Shown here: piece after piece, positions 4,710 through 38,230 of the stretch
Numbering within the stretch: the first letter of the stretch is position 1
How the letters are laid out: each line of letters opens with the position of its first letter
Virus record (IMG/VR): IMGVR_UViG_3300012008_000019
Location: 1-38,234 of that record
Source: a virus
Direction: 5' to 3' (one strand)
Length of the DNA stretch: 38,234 bases
Notes under the pieces: model-generated
What the model saw: the letters and a program-made list of their open reading frames with translations, nothing else
Database searches by the model: none
Told to the model about the DNA's origin: nothing
Made by a program: the position numbers and the translations under genes

Positions 4710-4741
4710 TTGATGTTAATCAATACTGACGGTCGCGTCAA
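4710..4741 (-). promoter_or_regulatory. Leftward promoter with double palindromic operator (class I)
   Basis: Minus-strand -35 TTGACG (4741-4736), 17-bp spacer, -10 TAACAT (4718-4713). A perfect palindrome TGACG-N4-CGTCA (4727-4740) overlaps the -35 and a second, TTGAT-N4-ATCAA (4710-4723), overlaps the -10. The same arrangement recurs at 7469-7511, 10004-10035 and 11182-11213. It would drive the ssDNA-binding gene and then polymerase. Both palindromes would block RNA polymerase if bound. Confidence 0.8.
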
Positions 4742-4744
4742 CTG

Positions 4745-5878
4745 CTAATTGCCGAATACCTTGCGCGCCTGGCTGTTGTTCGCCGGTTCCAGTTTCAGGC
4801 CGGCGTTACCGCGTTCGGAGTACAGGTCCACGAGCGCCGGGTCGATAAGCTTTTTCGCTTGCGTAGGCGTGATTGCCTGGGGCTTGCTCAGATCCGCGCC
4901 GCACAGTCGCCCGAGCTCGAGAATCTCCTGTACGGGTTTGGCCCAACCGAGGCGGCCGAGGGTTTGCTCGAGCTGGAAATACGGGTTCCGGCCGCCGGTA
5001 CGCAGCACGTGCTCGATTTGTTCCGAGTGCCCCGAGATCCGCGCCGCGAGCCTGGCTTGCGCGCGCAGCAGCATGCGCAGCTCGAGCCCCGCCGCCTCCG
5101 GGGTCATCTCGTGCGGCGCCGAGTGGAACGCCACGTCGGCGGCCTCGTACGCGGAGCGCTGCAACGCCTCGCACGCGTGGCGCCCGGGGCAATGCTTACA
5201 CGCGGCGGACGGCGTGGCGATCGGTTTCGGCATGTGCGCCGCCTCGGCCGCGCCGCGCAGCTTGTTGAAATGCCCGCGCAAGTCTACCGCTTTTGTGCGC
5301 CAGGTCCGGACGGGGCCGTCGCGATGGTAGGAACGAGGTTGCACGACCACGAACTCCACGTCGGTAAGCTGGTCGGCGATGCCGTCGATTCCGAGTTCGT
5401 CGAGCAGGCCGCATGTGTAGTCGACGAGCTGCCAATTCTCGAACACCTCGATAAACTCGTGCCCGAATTTATAGTCAAGAACGACCAGTTTCGCGCGTCC
5501 GGACGTTGGGTTATGCCCGAAAATCCACGTGTCCGGCGTGCCCCAGTTATTTTCGTGAACCCAGGGAATCATGACGCGGCGTTCGATGAAATAGTGCGAC
5601 ACCGACGCGAGCGACTGGTATGCCTCGGAGACGGCCGCCGCGTACACCTCGCCGCCCTCGAGCATCTCCTCGGTAACGAGAACACCGTTTGGCGCGGTCA
5701 TGCCCTCGGCGATCGGGCGATTAAACAGCATCTCCTCGAATACCCAATGGGCGGCCGTCCCTTCCATCGCCTCGGCGCCCTGCTCGAGCTCCGGGTACCG
5801 GGCGTTCATGGTCGGCCACATCGCGCAGACTACCCATGCGTGGGCGCTGCTCGGCGGTAGAAACGCGTGGTCGCTCAT
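4745..5878 (-). CDS. DUF2800 family protein, PD-(D/E)XK (Cas4/RecB-like) nuclease (377 aa)
   Basis: The protein starts M-S-D-H-A-F-L-P-P-S-S-A-H-A-W and contains E-G-T-A-A-H, then V-V-L-D-Y-K-F-G, a D-x-K core typical of PD-(D/E)XK nucleases, then N-W-Q-L-V-D-Y and V-V-V-Q-P-R, all in the order known for DUF2800. A C-terminal cysteine cluster C-K-H-C-P-G-R-H-A-C matches the Fe-S or zinc site of Cas4-like enzymes. Such proteins process DNA ends in phage recombination or replication. The frame extends far upstream, but this Met overlaps the preceding stop by ATGA and matches the family start. It is the last gene of the three-gene unit starting at 7448. Confidence 0.85.
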   Translation of the reverse strand: MSDHAFLPPSSAHAWVVCAMWPTMNARYPELEQGAEAMEGTAAHWVFEEMLFNRPIAEGMTAPNGVLVTEEMLEGGEVYAAAVSEAYQSLASVSHYFIERRVMIPWVHENNWGTPDTWIFGHNPTSGRAKLVVLDYKFGHEFIEVFENWQLVDYTCGLLDELGIDGIADQLTDVEFVVVQPRSYHRDGPVRTWRTKAVDLRGHFNKLRGAAEAAHMPKPIATPSAACKHCPGRHACEALQRSAYEAADVAFHSAPHEMTPEAAGLELRMLLRAQARLAARISGHSEQIEHVLRTGGRNPYFQLEQTLGRLGWAKPVQEILELGRLCGADLSKPQAITPTQAKKLIDPALVDLYSERGNAGLKLEPANNSQARKVFGN

Positions 5879-6474
5879 GACTTGAACTCGGCCAGCGCCG
5901 CCGCAACGTGGGCCGCGAACGTCCCGTCCTTGCAGCCGTTGTAATCCGGCGCGAACTGCGGCGCCAGGCGGTTGAGAATCTCGCTTTCGCGGCCGTCGAG
6001 CAGCGCGCGCAGCAGGAAGCGCCAAAGCTCGGCGTGCGTGGCGTCGAGCTCCGCTTGCGCCTCGGCGGCGCGCTGCTTCGGCCCGTCCAACAGCGCGACC
6101 AAAATGTCGAGCGTGTCGTTGTCGTTCGGGCCGTCTGGCTGCAACCAGTGGGACAGCGCCATTTGAGCCGCTTTCAACAGCTTGAGGACCGGCGCGCCCG
6201 GTTCGCGTTTCGGTTCCGGCGCCGTCAAAATGAGCAGCGTATCGCGTGGTACGGCCAACAGCAGGCCGGCCTCGTCGATGCACTTCGCCCCCGCCTGGTA
6301 CGCTGCCTCGAGGCGCTCCGACTGAGCAACCGACAGCATGGCCAGCGACGGCCGTACGAGGGCGAGCAACGCCTCGAGGAACTCCTGCACTGGCAGGGCA
6401 TCCGGAACGAGCGGCGTCCGGTCGTGCGCCCGGATCGCGGCGTCGAGCGACGGCGACAAGGCGGGGGCCGACAT
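5875..6474 (-). CDS. Uncharacterised replication-module protein (199 aa)
   Basis: No family is recognisable. The protein is Ala/Leu-rich, mostly helical in appearance, with a central stretch P-R-D-T-L-L-I-L-T-A-P-E-P and a C-terminal segment rich in L-L and acidic residues. The start shares one base with the upstream stop (TAATG) and its stop shares ATGA with the nuclease start, so it is translationally coupled to both neighbours. That placement between the 324-aa protein and the DUF2800 nuclease suggests a role in DNA recombination or replication, but this is inference only. Confidence 0.75.
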   Translation of the reverse strand: MSAPALSPSLDAAIRAHDRTPLVPDALPVQEFLEALLALVRPSLAMLSVAQSERLEAAYQAGAKCIDEAGLLLAVPRDTLLILTAPEPKREPGAPVLKLLKAAQMALSHWLQPDGPNDNDTLDILVALLDGPKQRAAEAQAELDATHAELWRFLLRALLDGRESEILNRLAPQFAPDYNGCKDGTFAAHVAAALAEFKS

Positions 6475-7448
6475 TATGCGACTCCCATAGCGTCGAGTTG
6501 AGCCCACATCGCCGGGACCAGCTGCGGCGTCACGGCCAACATTGCGACGCTCGTTACCTTTCCCTCGGAGATGTACGCGCACAGCTGGCCGGCCGTCTCC
6601 TGGGTCAGCGTGCCCGCCGCCATTGCCGACGTTACGCGAGGCAAGAGCATTTGGAACGTAGGCGCGCCAACGTTAGAAGGTGCGGCCGTGGCGCTCGTAG
6701 TAAGCCCCGGCGGAGGAGGCGTAAGGGTCGCCGGCGGGAGGGTTGCGGCCGGTACTGGTGGCGCCTGGACGTTTCCCCCGGCGCTCAACGCTGCGCGCAG
6801 TTCGGCGGTTACGCTGGCCACGAGTTGGGGCATCACGCCGCGTTTCGCTTTCCATTTCTTGTCGCCGGCGTTCTTGTTTTTGGCGATCGAGTGGATCCGC
6901 GAGTCCCACGGCAGGCCGTCCGCGTCGAGGTCAACGGTAGACACCCCAGCCGTTGCGGCGCCATTGTTCGGTACGGCCGGCATGCCAGGCGGCGGCACGA
7001 TCGCAGGGGGCGCCGGAACGGCAGGCGGTACACCCGCCGAGGGGGCACCGTTTGGGCCGCCGAACGCCTGGGCCGGATCAATCTCGTTGACCGCAACCGG
7101 AGTTGGAACCGGGGGCACGCCCGGGACGGGAGGCAAGACCGCAACGGTCGGTGCAGGCGTCGGGGAAGATACAGAACCCGAGCCGGCCGCGACGTTTCCC
7201 GCGCCGAATACGACCGCCGGATCGACGGCAGGCGCGTTTTCGGCGACGAACCGTTTAAAGCCGATGACCTGGCCGGCGGTTTCCGGCATGACGCGGGTTT
7301 CGGTCGCTTTCGCCAGCGGGTCGGCGCCAACGTCCGGGCGGTCGGCGTGCGCGAGGGCCACGCTGTCGCCGGCGAGGGTCAACATCATAGCCGACAGGGC
7401 ACGCAAAACACGCGCGGGCTCGAGGCTTGGATCGAAACGAATTTCCAT
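6474..7448 (-). CDS. Conserved phage protein with GLPWD-x-RIH motif and Pro-rich linkers (324 aa)
   Basis: The N-terminal ~85 residues are followed by a long Pro/Ala/Val-rich linker, then a compact block near residues 172-205 (D-A-D-G-L-P-W-D-S-R-I-H-S ... K-K-W-K-A-K-R-G-V). I recognise this block from phage early proteins of unknown function next to recombination genes. A second Pro-rich linker and an Ala-rich C-terminal helical region follow. AGGA lies about 10 nt before the start. It is the first gene of the leftward unit controlled by the promoter at 7482-7511. The linker style matches the ssDNA-binding protein, so it may be a multi-domain adaptor at the replication fork. Confidence 0.75.
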   Translation of the reverse strand: MEIRFDPSLEPARVLRALSAMMLTLAGDSVALAHADRPDVGADPLAKATETRVMPETAGQVIGFKRFVAENAPAVDPAVVFGAGNVAAGSGSVSSPTPAPTVAVLPPVPGVPPVPTPVAVNEIDPAQAFGGPNGAPSAGVPPAVPAPPAIVPPPGMPAVPNNGAATAGVSTVDLDADGLPWDSRIHSIAKNKNAGDKKWKAKRGVMPQLVASVTAELRAALSAGGNVQAPPVPAATLPPATLTPPPPGLTTSATAAPSNVGAPTFQMLLPRVTSAMAAGTLTQETAGQLCAYISEGKVTSVAMLAVTPQLVPAMWAQLDAMGVA

Positions 7449-7468
7449 GATAAATTTTCCTAAAAGAA

Positions 7469-7497
7469 TTGATGAGAGTCAATATTAATGCGATACT
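7469..7497 (+). promoter_or_regulatory. Candidate rightward promoter for the methyltransferase-helicase unit
   Basis: TTGATG (7469-7474), 17-bp spacer, GATACT (7492-7497), followed 35 bp later by the methyltransferase start with a GAGG ribosome site. The -10 box matches consensus at four of six positions. It overlaps the leftward promoter and both palindromes, so binding there would control both directions. Confidence 0.5.
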
Positions 7498-7511
7498 GAC
7501 GCCTCAGTCAA
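7469..7511 (-). promoter_or_regulatory. Leftward class I promoter with palindromic operators in a divergent intergenic region
   Basis: Minus-strand -35 TTGACT (7511-7506), 18-bp spacer, -10 TAATAT (7487-7482). An imperfect palindrome TGACG-N4-AGTCA (7497-7510) covers the -35 and TTGAT-N4-GTCAA (7469-7482) lies just past the -10. This is the least perfect of the four class I sites and the second palindrome is displaced by about 10 bp. It would transcribe the 324-aa, 199-aa and nuclease genes. Confidence 0.7.
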
Positions 7512-7531
7512 CATCTATTTGAGGTAAATCA

Positions 7532-8245
7532 ATGTACGTTTTCAACGAGGATTGCCGAACGGGGCTTTTACCGTTTGCGGGCCTGGGCGACGCTGCGATC
7601 GCCGACCCGCCGTATGGGGACACCTCGCTACATTGGGACCGCCGGGTCGCCGGCTGGGTCGGCGCCGTCTCCGCCGCGCTGAAACCGAACGCGAGTATCT
7701 GGGTTTTCGGGAGCTTGCGTTTCCTGGCGCCGCTTTTCGCCGAGCTCGAGGCGGCCGGTTTCAAATACTCGCAAGACATCGTTTGGCAAAAACAGAATGG
7801 GACCGGCTTTCATAACGACCGATTCCGCCGAGTCCACGAGCACGCCGTTTTGTTTTACCGGGGCGCCTGGGCCGACGTGTACCACGATCCGCAATTCACC
7901 CTCGACGCGACAAAAAAAACAGTGCGTCGGAAAACCCGCCCCACTCATACCGGGCATATCGAGAACGGCCATTACGTCAGCGAGGACGGCGGCCCGCGCC
8001 TGGCGCTCAGTGTGCTACAGATTCGCAACGAGCATGGGCGAGCGATTCACCCGACGCAAAAACCGCTCGAGCTGCTCCGCCCGTTGATCCGTTACTCGGT
8101 ACCACCCGGTGGCCTGGTGCTCGATCCGTTCGCGGGCTCGGCCAGCGTGGGCGCCGCCGCCAAAGCCGAGGGGCGCCTGTACGTCGGGTTCGAGACAAAA
8201 GCGGAGTATGCAGCCATGAGTAACGCACGCCTCGAGGCCGCATAA
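7532..8245 (+). CDS. DNA (adenine-N6 type) methyltransferase, beta-class architecture (237 aa)
   Basis: This enzyme transfers methyl groups from S-adenosylmethionine to DNA. The catalytic motif D-P-P-Y is at residues 25-28 and the cofactor motif D-P-F-A-G-S-A-S-V-G near 199-208. That order, catalytic first and cofactor last, marks the beta class (N6-adenine or N4-cytosine). The H-P-T-Q-K-P-L-E-L-L segment before the cofactor motif is typical of CcrM/DpnA-like enzymes. About 150 residues separate the motifs and contain the likely target-recognition part; specificity cannot be read. No restriction endonuclease partner is adjacent, so protection against host restriction is more likely than a complete R-M system. 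Its stop and the helicase start share one base. Confidence 0.93.
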   Translation: MYVFNEDCRTGLLPFAGLGDAAIADPPYGDTSLHWDRRVAGWVGAVSAALKPNASIWVFGSLRFLAPLFAELEAAGFKYSQDIVWQKQNGTGFHNDRFRRVHEHAVLFYRGAWADVYHDPQFTLDATKKTVRRKTRPTHTGHIENGHYVSEDGGPRLALSVLQIRNEHGRAIHPTQKPLELLRPLIRYSVPPGGLVLDPFAGSASVGAAAKAEGRLYVGFETKAEYAAMSNARLEAA

Positions 8246-10029
8246 TGCCAACGCTCCGCCCCTATCAGCTCAAATTAAAAACCGAGATCAACCTCGCGTG
8301 GACGCAACTGTCGGCCGCTGGCCATGCGACGCCGGTTGTCCTGGCCGTGTCGCCCACGGGTACCGGCAAAACGGTGTTGTTTTCCGAGGTCATGACCGAC
8401 GAGCCGGGCGCCTCGTGCGCCGTCGCACACCGGAAAGAGATCACTTCGCAGATTTCCCTCGCGCTGGCGAAAAACGGCGTCCGGCATCGCATCATCGGCC
8501 AGAAACGCACGATCAAGAGTTGCTCAAACCTACAGCTCAAAAAGCTGAAACGCTCGTTCGTCGACCCGAACGCAAAATGCGGCGTGGCCGGCATCGACAC
8601 GCTTATCAACATCAAGCCGGACGACCCCGACTTTAAATGGCTGCAACAGGTCCGGCTATGGGTTGGTGATGAGGGGCACCACTTTTTACGCGAGAACAAA
8701 TGGGGGCGCGGCATCGCCATGCTACCGAACGCGCGCGGCCTCCTGGTTACGGCGGAGACGGGGCGCGCCGATGGTAAGGGGCTCGGGCGCCAGGCGGACG
8801 GCCTGGCCGACGCGATGGTCCTCGGCCCAACGATGCGCGACGCGATCGAGTGGGGGTACCTGGTCGACTACCGTATCGCCATGCCGGAGGGCGATGTCGA
8901 TATCTCCGAGGTCGAAATCAGCAAGACGACGGGCGACTTTAATTATTCGCAGCTGCGCAACGCGTTCCACGAGTCGAAAAAGATTTGCGGCGATACCGTC
9001 AAGGCCTACCAGCAGCACGCCGCCGGCAAGCTGGCCGTTGTATTCGCGGTCGATGTCGAGGAAGCTACCAAGATGGCGCGCAAATTCCGGGAGGAGGGCA
9101 TCCCGGCCCAGATGGTCAGCGCCGACACCGACGACGATCTCCGCGACGATACGCTCCGCCGGTTCGAGGCGCGCGAGCTGCTCGTCCTGGTCAATGTGGA
9201 CCTGTTCGGCGAGGGCTTCGATATGCCCAATATCGAGTGCGTGATTATGGCGCGCCATACCGAGTCGTTCAACCTGTACAAACAGCAATGGGGGCGTGGT
9301 ACCCGCCTCGATATTCCGGCCGACTGGATGCGCGCGTGGGACTCCTACACCCCCGAGCAGCGCCGGTACATGATCTCGATCTCGGCCAAACCGTACATGA
9401 TGCTAGTCGACATGGTCGGCAACGTGCTACGCCACGGCGGGCCGCCCGACAAGAGCGGCCGAGGCCAGTCGCTCGACCGCCGCGAGGGGGGCACGCGTAG
9501 CAGCTCGCGGAGCGACGCCATCCCAACGCGGGTATGTCTCAACAAGAACGCCCGGGGCTCCGGCCTGGCGTGTGCGCAACCGTACGAACGCTGGCTCCAC
9601 AAGTGCCCCTATTGCGGCCACGTACCCGAGCCGACCACGCGGTCGAGCCCCGAGGCGGTCGAGGGGAACGTCCTGCTCCTGGACGCCGCGACGATGGCCG
9701 CCCTACGTGGCGAGATCGCGAAAGTAGACGCGCCGGCCAACGCCGCCGCCTACGGTAGCGACGTGGTCGCGAACTCGATTCGCAAACGCCAATGGGAGCG
9801 CCAGCAGGCGCAAGAGGGGTTGCGCCGCGCTATAGCCTGGTGGGCGGGATTCGAGACGGCGAACGGGCGCACGCACGCCGGTGAGCAGTACAGCCGGTTT
9901 TACATGCTGTTCGGCGTCGACGTGCTCGCCGCTCAAGCGCTCGGCACACGTGAGGCCGACGAACTCCGGTTGAAAATCTGCAACAAATTGGCGCTTTTAG
10001 GAATTGACGCAACCGTCAGTATTGATTAA
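8245..10029 (+). CDS. SF2 DEAD/DEAH-box helicase (594 aa)
   Basis: An ATP-dependent DNA/RNA unwinding or translocating enzyme. Walker A S-P-T-G-T-G-K-T is at residues 36-43, motif II D-E-G-H near 142, a motif III variant T-A-E-T where relatives have T-A-T-P, and motif VI Q-Q-W-G-R-G-T-R at 347-354. A cysteine pair C-P-Y-C-G-H near 454-459 with upstream cysteines forms a likely zinc ribbon in the C-terminal third. The closest general relatives are phage RecQ/RecG-type or UvsW-like helicases used in fork remodelling. It is translated from an ATG overlapping the methyltransferase stop. Its last codons contain the next class I promoter. Confidence 0.92.
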   Translation: MPTLRPYQLKLKTEINLAWTQLSAAGHATPVVLAVSPTGTGKTVLFSEVMTDEPGASCAVAHRKEITSQISLALAKNGVRHRIIGQKRTIKSCSNLQLKKLKRSFVDPNAKCGVAGIDTLINIKPDDPDFKWLQQVRLWVGDEGHHFLRENKWGRGIAMLPNARGLLVTAETGRADGKGLGRQADGLADAMVLGPTMRDAIEWGYLVDYRIAMPEGDVDISEVEISKTTGDFNYSQLRNAFHESKKICGDTVKAYQQHAAGKLAVVFAVDVEEATKMARKFREEGIPAQMVSADTDDDLRDDTLRRFEARELLVLVNVDLFGEGFDMPNIECVIMARHTESFNLYKQQWGRGTRLDIPADWMRAWDSYTPEQRRYMISISAKPYMMLVDMVGNVLRHGGPPDKSGRGQSLDRREGGTRSSSRSDAIPTRVCLNKNARGSGLACAQPYERWLHKCPYCGHVPEPTTRSSPEAVEGNVLLLDAATMAALRGEIAKVDAPANAAAYGSDVVANSIRKRQWERQQAQEGLRRAIAWWAGFETANGRTHAGEQYSRFYMLFGVDVLAAQALGTREADELRLKICNKLALLGIDATVSID

Positions 10030-10035
10030 AGTCAA
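10004..10035 (+). promoter_or_regulatory. Rightward promoter with double palindromic operator (class I), inside the helicase 3' end
   Basis: TTGACG (10004-10009), 17-bp spacer, TAAAGT (10027-10032). The palindrome TGACG-N4-CGTCA is at 10005-10018 and a second, slightly imperfect TTGAT-N4-GTCAA at 10022-10035. It starts 50 bp before the winged-helix gene and would drive the 10055-11177 unit. The motif has forced the helicase C-terminus to encode its bases. Confidence 0.8.
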
Positions 10036-10054
10036 GGATTGACCGGAGGAAATT

Positions 10055-10324
10055 ATGTTAGATGCCATTCCAGACGAACCAGCACTCGAGCCGCGCAAGG
10101 TACCGAACGGCGCCGCGCGCCAGATCGTACGGGACGAATTGCGCCTTATCCGGGACGCCGGCGGCCTGCAACGTGTCGGCACGCGCTTTTTCCGTTACAC
10201 GCCGGCGGTTTCGCACCTGGTCGCGCGCCGCCTCGAGGCGATGGGCTTGATCGAGTGGACCCAGCCGTCCGGAGATATGCGCCTCGCGCTGCTGACCGAC
10301 GCCGGCCGCAAGGTGGCCGCGTGA
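10055..10324 (+). CDS. Small winged-helix-like DNA-binding protein (89 aa)
   Basis: The second half (R-Y-T-P-A-V-S-H-L-V-A-R-R-L-E-A-M-G-L-I-E ... L-A-L-L-T-D-A-G-R-K-V) has the rhythm of a winged helix: a recognition helix, the turn M-G-L-I-E, a beta wing and the closing phrase L-T-x-x-G-R as in MarR/PadR-like proteins. A strong GGAGGAAATT ribosome site precedes the ATG. The stop overlaps the following GTG start (GTGA). It is the first gene after a class I operator and may regulate this or another early promoter. No family name is certain. Confidence 0.7.
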   Translation: MLDAIPDEPALEPRKVPNGAARQIVRDELRLIRDAGGLQRVGTRFFRYTPAVSHLVARRLEAMGLIEWTQPSGDMRLALLTDAGRKVAA

Positions 10325-10785
10325 ATCTCGAGCAATGGGCCATCAAGTGGGGCGTACCGTACGCGGCGTTGGTCGATCTCCGGGCCGAAATGGGCATGCT
10401 GGGCGGCCACGGGATGCCGCCGAAGTCCGGGAGCAGCGAGGCGGCGGTACAGGCCGTCGTAACGCTCGAGGGCGCGCGCAAGGGGTACCGGCTCTGGCGT
10501 AACAACGTCGGCGGCAACGATACCGGCCTCCGCTGGGGCTTGGCCAACACCTCGCCGGCGATCAACAAAATTCTCAAATCCGGCGACCTGGTCGGCTGGC
10601 GCCGCGTGGTCATCGAACCGCACCACGTCGGCCAGGTATTCGCCCGGTTCGTGAGCCGCGAGAACAAGCGGCCCGACTGGGTTTGGACCGGTACCGACCA
10701 CGAGCAGGCGCAACTCAATTGGGCCAATTTAGTCAACAGCGACGGCGGCGACGCCGGTTTCGCAACAGGAGAGGGTACGTTATGA
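10321..10785 (+). CDS. VRR-NUC domain nuclease (154 aa)
   Basis: VRR-NUC domains are PD-(D/E)XK-fold nucleases that cut branched DNA and are common stand-alone phage proteins. Visible features are the early E-x-x-V-Q-x-V-V helix, G-x-x-x-x-R-N-N, the acidic S-G-D-L-V-G, then A-R-F-V-S-R-E-N-K carrying the E-x-K pair, followed by Q-A-Q-L-N-W, where relatives place the closing helix. The GTG start is chosen because it overlaps the preceding stop and has AAGGTGG upstream; it also matches the family length of about 100-160 residues. The stop overlaps the next start by ATGA. Confidence 0.82.
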   Translation: MNLEQWAIKWGVPYAALVDLRAEMGMLGGHGMPPKSGSSEAAVQAVVTLEGARKGYRLWRNNVGGNDTGLRWGLANTSPAINKILKSGDLVGWRRVVIEPHHVGQVFARFVSRENKRPDWVWTGTDHEQAQLNWANLVNSDGGDAGFATGEGTL

Positions 10786-11177
10786 ACCAGCCGATTAAAG
10801 CGTCGATTGTGGACCGCATCCGTAGTTTAGAACCCATCGAATTTGTACCCCCGATGCGGGTATACATCGCCGGGCCAATGAGCGGTATGCCGGGCCTCAA
10901 TTTCGCGGCATTCTTCGCCGCCGCGCAGCTGTACCGCCAGCGGGGTTGCGTGGTCATCAATCCGGCCGAACTGCACCCCGAGGCGGCCGACGAGGTCGCC
11001 CGGATGAGCAAGGAACAGCAGCTCGAGCACTGGCGCAAGTGCATGAAAATCGACATTCGCGAAATGCTGACGTGCGACATGGTCGTCATGCTGGACGGCT
11101 GGACCGCGTCGCGCGGCGCCACGCTCGAGCACCACGTCGCCCACGCGTTGGGCCTGGCCGTCGTGTGGCATAAATGA
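10782..11177 (+). CDS. DUF4406 protein, nucleoside 2-deoxyribosyltransferase-like (131 aa)
   Basis: The sequence M-R-V-Y-I-A-G-P-M-S-G-M-P near residues 25-37 is the signature of DUF4406 and the related nucleoside deoxyribosyltransferase fold. F-A-A-A at the next helix, V-I-N-P-A-E, the R-K-C-M-K-I-D-I-R-E-M-L segment and the G-W-T-A-S-R-G-A-T-L-E-H closing motif complete the pattern. Members may handle modified nucleosides or bind nucleotides; the phage role is not established. The ATG has GGAGAGG upstream and overlaps the nuclease stop. It ends the operon started at the 10004 promoter. Confidence 0.85.
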   Translation: MNQPIKASIVDRIRSLEPIEFVPPMRVYIAGPMSGMPGLNFAAFFAAAQLYRQRGCVVINPAELHPEAADEVARMSKEQQLEHWRKCMKIDIREMLTCDMVVMLDGWTASRGATLEHHVAHALGLAVVWHK

Positions 11178-11181
11178 GCTG

Positions 11182-11213
11182 TTGACGGACTCGTCAGTAT
11201 TGATTACCATCAA
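11182..11213 (+). promoter_or_regulatory. Rightward promoter with double palindromic operator (class I), before the TetR-like gene
   Basis: TTGACG (11182-11187), 17-bp spacer, TACCAT (11205-11210). Both palindromes are perfect here: TGACG-N4-CGTCA at 11183-11196 and TTGAT-N4-ATCAA at 11200-11213. The site begins 5 bp after the DUF4406 stop and lies 29 bp before the regulator's ATG, which fits autoregulation. It would also transcribe the primase-helicase. Confidence 0.82.
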
Positions 11214-11562: not shown

Positions 11563-13965
11563 ATGCAACAGCTCCCGCCTGCATTGGCCGCACTGGGCAA
11601 CTATCGTCAATTTATCGTGTGCCAGCTCGTGCCCGACTCGTCGCGCCCGGGGAAAACGCATAAATACCCGCTCAACATCTACGACGGCAAGAAACACGAC
11701 GCCCACGACTCGAGTATCTGGCTTGACGCGGCGACAGCGTGCGCCACGGCGTCGGCCTGGGGGGCGGGCTATTGCGTGGGCTTTACTTTCACCGAGCAAG
11801 ATCCGTTCTTTTTTATCGACGTTGATAATTGCGTGGACGCCTCGGGCCAGTGGACGCCGATCGTCGCCGAACTGTCCGCCGCGCTACCTGGCGCCGCGAT
11901 CGAGATCTCCCAGTCGGGCCGGGGCTTGCATATCTTCGGCGTCGGTCCCCCGCCCGCCGACCGCCGCAAAAAGGACTACACGAACCAGCTGTTCGACCTG
12001 TACACCGAGAAACGGTTCGTCGCCCTGACCGGTACCGGCCTCGTCGGCGACATTTGGACCGAGCACACGGCCGGCCTGTACGCCCTCACCGAGAAATGGC
12101 TCAAGCGCGTAACCTCGAGCGACGGCCGCGACGTGGAATGGACGACGGAACCGGTACCCGGCTGGAACGGCCCGACCGACGACGCGGAGCTCATCAAGCG
12201 CGCCATGCGCTCACACTCGGCGCGCGCGGCGTTCGGGCCGGCCGCCTCGTTCGCCGATCTTTGGGAGTGCAACGTCGACGTGCTGGCCGCCTCCTACCCG
12301 CCGGACGGCAACGGCACGCTGTCGTACGACGCCAGCCGGGCCGACCGTGCGCTCGCCCAGCACCTCGCGTTCTGGACCGGCAAGGATTGCGAGCGGATCC
12401 GCCGCTTGATGGAACAGTCGGGCCTACGCCGCGACAAGTGGGAGCGCGAAAGCTACGTCCTCGCAACGATCCTGGGCGCTGTGGCCGTGCAAAACGACGT
12501 GCTGGTCGACAAGCCCATGCAAGACGCGCCGGCGCTCCTGGCGCCCGCTCCTGGCGTCTCTGGTACGGCCCCACGCGCGGAGCCCGTCACCGGGAGCACG
12601 TTTCTATCGCCGGCCGACCAAATGAACATGTTCAACGGCGTAAGCTACGTTTGCGACCAGCACCGGGCGCTAATCCCGGGCGGCCAGCTGCTCAAGCCTG
12701 ACCAATTCCGCGTGATGTATGGCGGGAACACGTTCGTCATGGACCTGGATGGTACCCGCACCTCGCGCGACCCGTGGGAGGCGTTTAGCCAATCGCAAGC
12801 GTTCCGCGTGCCCCGCGCCGACACGACGTGTTTCCGTCCGGAGCGCGCCGCCGGCGAGATCATCGACTACGACGGTCAAAAGAAAGCCAATCTATGGTGG
12901 CCCGTGGCCACGTCGCGCAAGGTTGGCGACGCCGGCCCGTTCTTGCGTCACCTGGCCGCGCTGCTGCCGGACGAACGCGACCGCATGATCCTGCTGTCAT
13001 ACATGGCCGCCGTCGTCCAATACAAGGGCTACAAATTCCAATGGTGCCCGCTAATTCAAGGCGTCGAGGGCAACGGTAAAACGCTGCTAACGCGTTGCGT
13101 CGCGTTCGCGATCGGCGAGAGGTACAGCTACTACCCGAAGGCCTCCCAAATCGCAAAGAATTTCAACGCCTGGCAATACTGTACGATTTTCGCCGGTATC
13201 GAGGACATCTATGTCGCCGAGGGCAACGCCCACGTTATGGAAGAACTCAAACCGATGGTAACGGGCGACCGTAACGAAGTCGAGGGCAAGGGCATCGACC
13301 AAGTCCTCCGCGAGCTGGTGTTTAATTTGATGCTCAACTCGAACCACCAAGACGCCTTGCGCAAGAACCGCAACGACCGTCGGTTCACCATGTTCTTTAC
13401 GGCCCAGCAGTCGGCCGAGGATATCGTCGAATGGGGCATGGGCGGCGACTATTTCCCGAAGCTGTATAGCTGGTTGCGCGCCGAGGGCTACGCCATCGTA
13501 AACGAGCTGCTCCACACGTTCGAGATTCCGGCCGAGTTTAACCCGTGTGTCCAAATGGGCGGCCTGGCCCAGCGCGCGCCGCTGACCAGCTCGTACGAGG
13601 CGGCCATCTCCGCCAGCCTGGGGAGTGTCGAGCAGGAAGTCCTCGAGGCGATCGAGCAAGGCCTCCCGGGCTTCGCTGGGGGTTGGATCTCCTCGATCGC
13701 GTTCGATGGCCTGCTCGGTCGCTTGAACAAGGGCGGCCGGGTACCGATCAACAAGCGCCGCGACATGCTCGTCAAACTCGGCTACGACTGGCATCCGGCG
13801 TTGCTCCTGGGCCGCGTGAACAACGTAGTCGCCCCCGACAACGGCAAGCCGCGCCTGTTTATCCGCAATGGCCACGAGTCCGCGAAACTGACCGCCGCCG
13901 CTGACGTGGCGCGCGCCTACTCCGCCGCGCAAGTCGTGAGCGTGTTTCCTGGCGTGCCAGCATGA
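11563..13965 (+). CDS. Primase-helicase: AEP-like primase domain plus SF3-type helicase (800 aa)
   Basis: The N-terminal domain resembles archaeo-eukaryotic primase/polymerases: F-F-F-I-D-V-D-N with acidic residues D86 and D88, and S-G-R-G-L-H with H123. The C-terminal half has a helicase core, Walker A G-V-E-G-N-G-K-T at about 498-505 and Walker B-like F-A-G-I-E-D near 543-548, followed by N-S-N-H and R-F arginine-finger candidates. This AEP plus SF3 plan is that of the NrS-1 polymerase type and other phage primase-helicases; it would prime and unwind at the origin. AAGGA precedes the ATG. The C-terminal ~130 residues may be a winged-helix/DNA-binding region. Its stop overlaps an ATG by ATGA. 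Confidence 0.88.
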   Translation: MQQLPPALAALGNYRQFIVCQLVPDSSRPGKTHKYPLNIYDGKKHDAHDSSIWLDAATACATASAWGAGYCVGFTFTEQDPFFFIDVDNCVDASGQWTPIVAELSAALPGAAIEISQSGRGLHIFGVGPPPADRRKKDYTNQLFDLYTEKRFVALTGTGLVGDIWTEHTAGLYALTEKWLKRVTSSDGRDVEWTTEPVPGWNGPTDDAELIKRAMRSHSARAAFGPAASFADLWECNVDVLAASYPPDGNGTLSYDASRADRALAQHLAFWTGKDCERIRRLMEQSGLRRDKWERESYVLATILGAVAVQNDVLVDKPMQDAPALLAPAPGVSGTAPRAEPVTGSTFLSPADQMNMFNGVSYVCDQHRALIPGGQLLKPDQFRVMYGGNTFVMDLDGTRTSRDPWEAFSQSQAFRVPRADTTCFRPERAAGEIIDYDGQKKANLWWPVATSRKVGDAGPFLRHLAALLPDERDRMILLSYMAAVVQYKGYKFQWCPLIQGVEGNGKTLLTRCVAFAIGERYSYYPKASQIAKNFNAWQYCTIFAGIEDIYVAEGNAHVMEELKPMVTGDRNEVEGKGIDQVLRELVFNLMLNSNHQDALRKNRNDRRFTMFFTAQQSAEDIVEWGMGGDYFPKLYSWLRAEGYAIVNELLHTFEIPAEFNPCVQMGGLAQRAPLTSSYEAAISASLGSVEQEVLEAIEQGLPGFAGGWISSIAFDGLLGRLNKGGRVPINKRRDMLVKLGYDWHPALLLGRVNNVVAPDNGKPRLFIRNGHESAKLTAAADVARAYSAAQVVSVFPGVPA

Positions 13966-15229: not shown

Positions 15230-15258
15230 TTGACGACGGTAAATAATTGAACTATTCT
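15230..15258 (+). promoter_or_regulatory. Rightward sigma70-type promoter, class II (TTGACG-N17-TATTCT)
   Basis: TTGACG (15230-15235), 17-bp spacer and TATTCT (15253-15258). The spacer ACGGTAAATAATTGAAC differs at one position from that of the leftward promoter at 905-933, and the two are the only such copies I found. It lies right after the terminator and 36 bp before the 111-aa gene. Confidence 0.8.
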
Positions 15259-15293: not shown

Positions 15294-15629
15294 ATGACCA
15301 GCATCGCCGACGACAAAGGGTTCCTCGCCCTCCTGGACGCGCACGGGTACGCCGCGCATGACGCGAAAGTGTGCGGGGGCGACTTCGGTACCGCCAGCGC
15401 CTACGCGGCGGCCGAGGAGGCGCTCGCGGCCTACCGGGATCACATTCTCGAGGTGCGCACCCTGGCCGCCCGCGTGGTCAATGACGCCCTGGCGCTGCAG
15501 CATGACCGCATCACACGCATGGCGTCCGCCCTCGAGGAGATCAAGCGGACGGCGAAAGCCCAGTTCGCCCCGACCGCAACAATCCTGGCAATCGTCGACC
15601 TGGCCGACGCCGGGCTCCGCGTTACTTGA
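15294..15629 (+). CDS. Small uncharacterised helical protein (111 aa)
   Basis: The protein is Ala-rich and mostly helical, beginning M-T-S-I-A-D-D-K-G-F-L-A-L-L-D and with a long amphipathic middle (residues about 35-80). No domain is recognised. A CGGAG ribosome site precedes the ATG, and the gene is the only one between the class II promoter and the convergent zinc-finger gene, whose 3' end it overlaps by 8 nt. Sharing a promoter type with the 215-aa repeat protein suggests that both are expressed at the same stage. Confidence 0.7.
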   Translation: MTSIADDKGFLALLDAHGYAAHDAKVCGGDFGTASAYAAAEEALAAYRDHILEVRTLAARVVNDALALQHDRITRMASALEEIKRTAKAQFAPTATILAIVDLADAGLRVT

Positions 15630-16152
15630 ACGTCCACTCGCCGGCCTGGTTGTCGCGCTGCCCGTGCCCATCCGGCGGGGCAACCTGGCCCAGCGCCCGG
15701 GCCCGCGCCGCCTCCCCGTTACCCGCTGACCGCGCTGACACCATCGCGAGCGCCACCTCCCGCAAGATCCCCACGTCCTCGGCCTCAACCCGGAATTTGT
15801 ACAACGCGGTCCCGACCTGGTAGTCGAAGGGTTTCCACCTACCGACCACATCGCCGCGTACCATTTTCGGATGGCGCGCCAGCGTCACCGCGACGACGGT
15901 TTCGGTAAAGGCGGGGGCGTCGGCCTGGAAACAACGAAACGTCGTCTCGGCCAAAGCGTTGCGCACCTCTCGTTTTTTAGCGCTCGCCGCCATCGTAGCG
16001 GCGTAAATCGCTAACGAAATACTCCTCGTGCATTCAACGCAAGCCCCAGACGCCGCGTAACGCTCCGAGGCGTGGCCGTGAATGCAGGTTTTCCCGGTCG
16101 TGTAACGGGTCAAACCGAAGTGGATAGCCTCGCGGCGGGTTGTTGCAAGCAT
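15622..16152 (-). CDS. Zinc-finger protein of the C-x2-GH...C-x2-C type, uncharacterised (176 aa)
   Basis: Residues about 14-41 read L-T-R-Y-T-T-G-K-T-C-I-H-G-H ... R-Y ... C-V-E-C, a zinc-binding module seen at the N-terminus of many phage HNH/endonuclease VII-like proteins. The rest (K-M-V-R-G-D-V-V, F-R-V-E-A-E-D-V-G-I) shows no catalytic HNH pattern I can see, so it may only bind DNA. A strong AAGGAG ribosome site precedes the ATG. It is the only leftward gene between about 7.5 and 36.6 kb and runs against its neighbours, which suggests an independently acquired or separately controlled gene reading out of the noncoding block at 16153-16543. Confidence 0.72.
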   Translation of the reverse strand: MLATTRREAIHFGLTRYTTGKTCIHGHASERYAASGACVECTRSISLAIYAATMAASAKKREVRNALAETTFRCFQADAPAFTETVVAVTLARHPKMVRGDVVGRWKPFDYQVGTALYKFRVEAEDVGILREVALAMVSARSAGNGEAARARALGQVAPPDGHGQRDNQAGEWTFK

Positions 16153-23994: not shown

Positions 23995-24477
23995 GTGACT
24001 CGCACCGAACTGGAAGCAAAGAACAAAACAGAGCTCCTCGCGCTGGCAACGTCGCTTGGTTTCGAGGGCATGACCCCGGCCACCGCTAAAGCCGACATGG
24101 TCGCCCAGCTGCTCGGCCTGACGCCGAAAGATCCGGTCGACGATGATCCGGAAGTCGCCGCCGCGAAAGCGATCGCCGCCGACGAGCGCAAAAACCCGCT
24201 GGCGCGCGAGGGCAAGCTGCGCGACCTGGCCGGCAACCTGGTCAAGTGCAAAAAAGTCAAAATCATGATCTTGGCCACCGAGCAGGAACAAGGCGACGTG
24301 AAACTCAGTCTCAACGGCCACATGCTGCAGATTAAACGCGGCGTCGAGGTCGAGATCGACGAGCCATACCTCGGCGTGCTGCGCGACTCGATCGTCAGCA
24401 CCGTGCAATGGAACCCCGAAACCAACCAGCGTACGGCAATGCAGATCCAGCGCTACCCGTACCAGATCCTGGGCTAA
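23995..24477 (+). CDS. Structural protein with N-terminal HeH/SAP-like segment (160 aa)
   Basis: The first 45 residues (R-T-E-L-E-A-K-N-K-T-E-L-L-A-L-A-T-S-L-G ... A-K-A-D-M-V-A-Q-L-L-G) fit a small two-helix DNA-binding fold of the HeH/SAP/Rho-N type: a helix, a loop with G, then a closing helix. The rest has K-V-K-I-M-I-L-A-T-E-Q and a Q-R-Y-P-Y-Q end with no known domain. The start is a GTG with AGGA 7 nt upstream. Its place between capsid and the gp4-like protein makes a head-completion role likely; the DNA-binding segment could touch packaged DNA. Confidence 0.7.
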   Translation: MTRTELEAKNKTELLALATSLGFEGMTPATAKADMVAQLLGLTPKDPVDDDPEVAAAKAIAADERKNPLAREGKLRDLAGNLVKCKKVKIMILATEQEQGDVKLSLNGHMLQIKRGVEVEIDEPYLGVLRDSIVSTVQWNPETNQRTAMQIQRYPYQILG

Positions 24478-37922: not shown

Positions 37923-38230
37923 TGGGTTTCCCTTTCAAAGTTGCGATGTGTGCCCGGTACGTCTTATTCATGCTGATAGCCTGACGGGTAATACCGGTCT
38001 TTTTCGAGGCCGCGTAAGCCGTGAGCCCCTTTTCCACAATGAGGCGGAGCGCTTCTTTCATCTCCGCCGATACACGTCCAGCCATAAGAGTTACTCCCCG
38101 AGGGTCCGCAAAATAGCGAGCAGCGCGTCGCGCTCACCCGACCACGCCGCCGACCACGCCGCCGACTCACCCGACCACGCCGCCGACTCACCCGCCCACG
38201 CCGCCGACCTCGCCGCCGACCCCGCCGCCG
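37872..38230. repeat. Terminal direct repeat, right copy (identical to 1-359)
   Basis: Second copy of the 359-bp repeat described at the left end. The last four bases of the window (38231-38234) differ from the expected continuation and lie in a GCC-rich tandem repeat, so they are probably assembly noise. Confidence 0.95.
37915..38085 (-). CDS. Small helix-turn-helix protein, second copy (56 aa)
   Basis: Identical to the gene at 44-214; both are one gene on a circular map. Its 3' end overlaps the 96-aa gene by 8 nt here, giving the uninterrupted order repeat protein, HTH, 96-aa, 44-aa, 63-aa, 140-aa, 83-aa, all leftward. Confidence 0.7.
   Translation of the reverse strand: MAGRVSAEMKEALRLIVEKGLTAYAASKKTGITRQAISMNKTYRAHIATLKGKPNV

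Follow-up and report, generated by a model that had tools for sequence, protein, structure and literature searches.

The IMG/VR virus record IMGVR_UViG_3300012008_000019 was analyzed over its whole length of 38,234 bp, which we call the window. A replication module lies at the left, followed by the packaging and structural genes. Within that module the genes for a DNA polymerase, a single-stranded DNA-binding and annealing protein (SSB), a DUF2800-type exonuclease and a 324-amino acid (324-aa) protein are read leftward, and those for a methyltransferase, a helicase, an 89-aa protein, a phrog_93 endonuclease, a DUF4406 protein, a 104-aa TetR_N protein and a primase are read rightward. No near relative of the record was found among phages by megablast. 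At four intergenic sites there is a sigma-70 promoter with the TTGAC of its −35 element nested within a palindrome that we designate op1. The distribution of this element in related phages suggests that it is probably the operator of a hitherto undescribed circuit for the repression of early phage genes, read by the 104-aa protein, which we term the mini-TetR.

Four promoter sites with putative operators

We define op1 as TGAC-N6-GTCA, which in the window takes the form TGACG-N4-CGTCA, and a second palindrome, op2, as TTGA-N6-TCAA (window form TTGAT-N4-ATCAA). A preliminary description of this DNA had pointed to four promoter-embedded sites that share a TTGAC −35 inside the first palindrome, and all four are present just as described (Table 1). 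The op1 word occurs four times in the window where 0.33 are expected (p = 4e-4), and op2 six times against an expectation of 0.47. The longer pattern TTGAC-N6-GTCAGTAT is found exactly four times in the 38,234-bp record, and its reversed control not at all. An independent, blind sigma-70 scan called each of the four sites a promoter (9/12 matches; spacers of 17, 17, 17 and 18).

The second palindrome had been placed, as a rule, on the −10 element. This holds at three of the sites, where op2 lies 17 bp from op1. At the divergent site it is displaced by 11 bp, so that it covers not the leftward −10 but the likely −35 of the methyltransferase promoter, for which TTGATG-N17-GATACT (8/12 matches) is the candidate. 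The regulator gene had also been placed behind the most perfect copy; its site is indeed perfect, but that of the SSB gene is equally so, and the two are tied. The CAGTAT tail said to accompany the sites is present in the window, but relatives retain it only in part (CAGTAT, CAGAAT, CAGGAT, CATAAT) and was dropped as a separate element. A further promoter-like sequence, TTGACG-N17-TATTCT at 15230-15258, precedes small genes that follow the primase unit. It has no right operator half-site, and may be an unrepressed or later promoter.

Table 1. Palindromes and genes of the window, with positions in the record
Feature	Position	Strand	Remarks
op1, SSB promoter	4727-4740	-	perfect; TGACGCGACCGTCA on minus strand; on −35 TTGACG (4741-4736)
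op2, SSB promoter	4710-4723	-	perfect; TTGATTAACATCAA on minus strand; contains −10 TAACAT (4718-4713)
op1, divergent promoter	7497-7510	-	one mismatch; TTGACTGAGGCGTCA on minus strand; on leftward −35; −10 TAATAT, spacer 18
op2, divergent site	7469-7482	.	one mismatch; TTGATGAGAGTCAA; centre 28 bp from op1; overlaps putative rightward methyltransferase −35 (TTGATG)
Third op2-like palindrome	7519-7532	.	TTGAGGTAAATCAA; centre 22 bp from op1; overlaps methyltransferase start codon
op1, winged-helix/VRR-NUC unit	10005-10018	+	perfect; −35 TTGACG 10004-10009
op2, winged-helix/VRR-NUC unit	10022-10035	+	one mismatch; TTGATTAAAGTCAA; on −10 TAAAGT (10027-10032)
op1, TetR-like gene	11183-11196	+	perfect; TGACGGACTCGTCA; −35 TTGACG 11182-11187
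op2, TetR-like gene	11200-11213	+	perfect; TTGATTACCATCAA; on −10 TACCAT (11205-11210)
Gp2.5-like SSB/annealing protein, 396 aa	3481-4671	-	putative regulon member; phrog_7011, 8.7e-60
PD-(D/E)XK/DUF2800 exonuclease, 377 aa	4745-5878	-	leftward unit; phrog_69, 6e-50
324-aa protein	6474-7448	-	leads leftward unit
N6/N4 DNA methyltransferase	7532-8245	+	leads rightward unit; PF01555, 9.5e-35
DNA helicase, 594 aa	8245-10029	+	phrog_16
89-aa protein	10055-10324	+	winged-helix-like by eye; no family match, no homologue in relatives
Endonuclease, 154 aa	10321-10785	+	phrog_93; VRR-NUC unit of the preliminary description
Mini-TetR, 104 aa	11242-11556	+	proposed repressor; PF00440, 2.8e-12; phrog_8723
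DNA primase/helicase, 800 aa	11563-13965	+	adjoins regulator here and in nearly all relatives

Conservation of op1 in related phages

How general is this arrangement? The counts within the window are suggestive rather than overwhelming, and relatives were therefore brought in. Searching viral contigs with the 104-aa sequence by itself gave no hits; an alignment and profile of the primase was then used, and returned 80 IMG/VR loci, in nearly all of which the TetR gene lies directly before that of the primase. Homologues of the 104-aa protein are present in more than 90 phage records, usually near a primase or nuclease gene.

The closest comparison is with three IMG/VR contigs (L021, L022 and L023) whose primases are ~70% identical to that of the window, and whose TetR proteins are only 45-48% identical. 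In all three the divergent promoter and the TetR promoter retain op1 as well as op2. Both palindromes are also kept at the SSB promoter of L022 and L023, the L021 contig ending before this gene. Within these sites TTGAC/GTCA and TTGA/TCAA are constant and the inner bases vary, with one exception in an op2 of L023. The third op2-like palindrome, at the methyltransferase start codon, is present in L021 and L023 and not in L022. The remaining window site, at 10004, goes with the 89-aa gene, which is absent from these relatives.

Across the wider set the same word emerges from an unbiased palindrome scan that took in all words with half-sites of 4-6 bases and gaps up to 20. TGACG-N4-CGTCA ranks first in Klebsiella phages JD001 and KpV52 and in Pantoea phage AAM22 (10 sites each), in Acinetobacter phage LAPP1 (11 sites) and in Pectobacterium phage PEAT2 (12 sites). 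The first rank is taken by TGAC-N6-GTCA in Edwardsiella phage PEi21 (13 sites) and by TGACA-N4-TGTCA in Acinetobacter phage Scuro (five sites), and Vibrio phage VchM-138 has six copies of TTGAC-N6-GTCAA. When 74 non-redundant loci with the TetR gene were pooled (de-duplicated by shared 21-mers, the window excluded), TGAC-N6-GTCA was observed 218 times against 30.5 expected, ranking first of 3,312 palindromic words; any gap other than 6, up to 14, gives only 14-44. SppYZU01, which had been taken as a control lacking TetR, carries the gene and is counted among the loci that have it. In eight TetR-less relatives the word is found nine times against 4.4 expected, and these copies look like chance: few have the T of TTGAC and most lie outside a promoter context. 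A scan of viral contigs for TTGAC-N6-GTCAGTATTGAT gave five matches, about the number expected by chance, of which three share one sequence, and was not used.

The promoter geometry is equally well preserved. The T completing TTGAC is present in 290 of 324 op1 sites (90%, against a background of 29%), the best −10 stands at 17 bp in 217 of them, and a −10 matching TATAAT at four or more positions is found in 71%, compared with 15% in the background. op1 lies by the start of 48 of the 97 TetR genes, against a chance expectation of 0.57. The preliminary description had proposed a multi-site autoregulated regulon read by the short TetR-like protein, and suggested a search for the motif in relatives that keep this regulator; there it is strongly enriched, adjoining the regulator gene in half of cases, and the comparison thus supports the proposal.

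In the window op1 is found only at replication and recombination units. In Klebsiella Jedunavirus and relatives op1 marks about a dozen promoters, mostly of non-structural genes. JD001 and KpV52 have ~10-12 such sites; nearly all that are promoter-like point at non-structural genes, and many of these are not on the strand that carries the structural genes. Of the promoters annotated by the depositors of KpV52, four coincide with op1, one more (38200-38228) has op1 not on the −35 but at its start point, and four have none. Conserved op1 copies with a −35 and −10 of their own also occur between tail and baseplate genes, antisense in several phages (L013 at 91, L026 at 23500, L017 at 9406 and L027 at 24860).

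The mini-TetR protein

The 104-aa protein has a TetR_N helix-turn-helix (HTH) domain (PF00440; 46.7 bits against a cut-off of 24), and matches the phrog_8723 profile over residues 9-100 (9.1e-25). The AlphaFold2 model comprises seven helices with a pLDDT of 90. The HTH is predicted with high confidence as helices 10-28, 35-42 and 46-53, placing the recognition helix at ~46-53. In the alignment the TetR_N domain is followed by a conserved stretch, IAQGLA..D..A.KAP..L...A, part of a conserved C-terminal module of ~40 residues that is helical in the prediction. Sequence and structure searches of the PDB gave matches covering only the HTH region of much longer TetR chains, and no full-length structural match (TMq up to ~0.6, none at E <= 0.001). 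Matches spanning the whole protein were obtained with three predicted structures of phage proteins. Proteins of the TetR family are ~190 aa or more, with a C-terminal ligand-binding and dimerization domain that is missing from the 104-aa protein. Thus on the predicted fold the protein is a mini-TetR lacking the ligand domain.

Among alignment columns the strongest association with op1 presence is that of G47, where the recognition helix begins, and the class of operator covaries with this residue (z = 6.6; 0 of 500 shuffles, with TetR rows de-duplicated at 80% identity and kinship not corrected). Two alignment columns outside the recognition helix are also associated with the presence of op1. 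Clades of the regulator without op1 often have a recurrent promoter palindrome of their own. PY6 (L015) has GTAGCGC-N4-GCGCTAC five times (at 7107, 8014, 12382, 19992 and 28188), each copy flanked by TTGAC and GTCAA elements; this is probably the operator of another mini-TetR clade. SFCi1 (L011) has TAGTGTTACGTAACACTA at 24417, 37636 and 38252, and L058 has TATACC-N8-GGTATA between 9366 and 11845. Other recurrent promoter palindromes in mini-TetR phages without op1 lie at 3269-8721 in L080 and at 12383, 13928 and 17773 in L025, pointing to turnover of the operator.

The protein shares with TetR, QacR and EilR the N-terminal three-helix HTH, a palindromic operator that overlaps its own promoter and, putatively, autoregulation. 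It differs from them in having only ~40 residues after the HTH, and in the many operators dispersed through one phage genome in place of a single divergent operator. By profile and by its locus beside the primase it belongs with phrog_8723, of unknown function in PHROGs, and with the TetR-annotated genes of Jedunavirus, Yokohamavirus and Peatvirus, which are annotated by domain only.

A probable repressor of early promoters

It is quite likely that the mini-TetR functions as a Cro-like autoregulated repressor, occluding the early promoters and so shutting off early transcription. A dimer would bind TGACG-N4-CGTCA, a 14-bp palindrome with the −35 of a strong sigma-70 promoter in its left half, and host RNA polymerase would be excluded. 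Because the operator overlies a consensus-like −35, we judge repression through occlusion much more probable than activation. On entry the promoters would fire, expressing the SSB/annealing, exonuclease, helicase, methyltransferase, endonuclease and primase units together with the repressor itself. Accumulating repressor would then close all the op1 promoters, and polymerase would pass to late promoters that have no operator. Since there is no ligand-binding domain, control is expected to be exerted by repressor concentration and to need no inducer. In the window clade op2 would obstruct polymerase a second time, at the −10 or at an opposing −35. Operators at every replication unit, together with autoregulation, are consistent with a feedback of the Cro type that restrains early transcription.

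Lambda-type Cro and lytic repressors, such as the Cro of PY54, are small, ligand-free, autoregulated HTH proteins. By analogy the mini-TetR, which is likewise small and ligand-free, would be expected to restrain early promoters in the lytic cycle. It may act as Cro does, but its TetR_N fold, in place of a Cro/CI-type HTH, sets it outside the Cro family. Its proposed operators are spread over four to ~12 promoters, and no integrase or resolvase was found in the window.

Several observations count against this interpretation. The timing of an early-to-late switch rests only on gene functions, by which 'early' and 'late' were assigned, and on the absence of op1 from most of the structural genes, and there is a conserved op1 site among the tail genes. 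In roughly half of cases the near upstream region of the TetR gene contains no op1, and about one-third of the loci show no op1 excess. The TetR-less set is small and more distant, and phylogeny is ignored in the tests of covariation and co-occurrence, beyond the de-duplication of loci and of TetR rows.

Could the palindromes be merely strong sigma-70 promoters of this lineage, conserved through promoter strength and descent? The sites do form good promoters, several of them annotated as such in KpV52, and the promoter at 15230 has TTGACG with no right half-site. Yet a promoter has no need of GTCA 6 bp after TGAC, the one spacing that is enriched; Scuro has a symmetric variant of the palindrome, KpV52 has op1 at a start point (38228), and host-like promoters without a palindrome exist in the same genomes. 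We therefore consider this explanation very improbable. We give similarly little credence to the idea that op1 is read by some other host or phage protein, the TetR-like protein being a bystander beside the primase. As the order of these two genes is conserved in general, their linkage by itself says little. However, the presence of the operator covaries with the recognition helix, loci that have the primase and lack TetR also lack promoter-type op1, and half of the TetR genes have an op1 of their own. Moreover, the hosts span Klebsiella, Pantoea, Pectobacterium, Edwardsiella, Acinetobacter and Vibrio.

op2 and its reader

Enrichment of op2 is seen mainly in the window clade, with more copies in parts of L036, L068 and L078. 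It is in excess only beside op1, at centre distances of 17 bp (nine times), 22 bp (three times) and 28 bp (five times) and rarely any other; distances of 17 and 28 bp differ by one helical turn. The fixed phasing favors proteins that touch each other, and a second, cooperatively bound TetR dimer is thus our preferred reader, although this is a weaker reading than that of op1. The half-site spacing of op2 is 2 bp shorter, which would be hard for a rigid TetR dimer to span.

That difference in spacing would be accommodated if op2 were read by a different protein. The preliminary description suggested the 89-aa winged-helix protein, and confinement of op2 mainly to one clade is what might be expected of a clade-specific phage reader, either this or another uncharacterized gene. 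However, no homologue of the 89-aa protein is detectable in L021-L023 (partial genomes), which keep op2, and this makes it an unlikely reader. The other shared gene of unknown function, at 15622-16152, is also considered an unlikely candidate, its product being zinc-knuckle/endonuclease VII-like with no HTH. The chance that a second phage protein reads op2 is consequently slim, if real. Alternatively op1 might be read by the mini-TetR and op2 by a host regulator of the CRP/FNR family (FNR/ANR/FixK), so that the early promoters would be held down or timed by oxygen or redox state. Letter for letter TTGAT-N4-ATCAA is the textbook FNR/ANR box, with the same half-site spacing, and it occurs at the four sites as two exact and two one-mismatch copies. 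It covers the −10 or a −35, a repressing position for such a protein. Since no match to a CRP-type HTH (HTH_Crp_2) was found in the window, the reader would have to be the host's. But an independent host box need not keep a fixed geometry with op1, and about half of the op2 copies have C or G as their fifth base. We regard control by an FNR-type protein as unlikely, though worth bearing in mind, and retain the second TetR dimer as first choice.

Implications

No description of the operator or regulon was found in the open-licence papers searched, which is weak evidence of novelty. A gene labelled only as a 'TetR family regulator' in annotated phages, including Klebsiella Jedunavirus, would thus gain a concrete operator, target promoters and a mechanism, and shut-off of early genes by a minimal TetR fold is suggested for a broad group of phages that has no known switch. 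The change of operator from clade to clade offers a natural series for the evolution of repressor specificity, and the promoters with their repressor could serve as a compact part for genetic circuits. In a bolder scheme, which we hold to be rather improbable in its entirety, phage-specific ligand-free mini-TetRs would run genome-wide regulons of early promoters across many and varied phages, the operator changing with the recognition helix, and in the window clade the FNR/ANR form of op2 would let host respiration gate early transcription.

Other features

The DUF4406 gene (10782-11177), immediately before the TetR operator, is nucleoside 2-deoxyribosyltransferase-like, and might have a role in the nucleotide pool or in anti-defence. 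The minus-strand gene at 15622-16152 encodes a fast-evolving protein of 176 aa (phrog_1081) whose N-terminus provides the zinc-knuckle/endonuclease VII similarity, and is kept beside the terminase genes in L021-L023. VchM-138 (L030) has four CGCCCC-N5-GGGGCG hairpins, at 2808, 16032, 20374 and 28980, that are probably terminators. Short tandem repeats are present in two relatives, with a 25-bp unit containing CTGTA-N6-TACAG at 9276-9391 of L109 and a 66-bp unit at 63-410 of L075.

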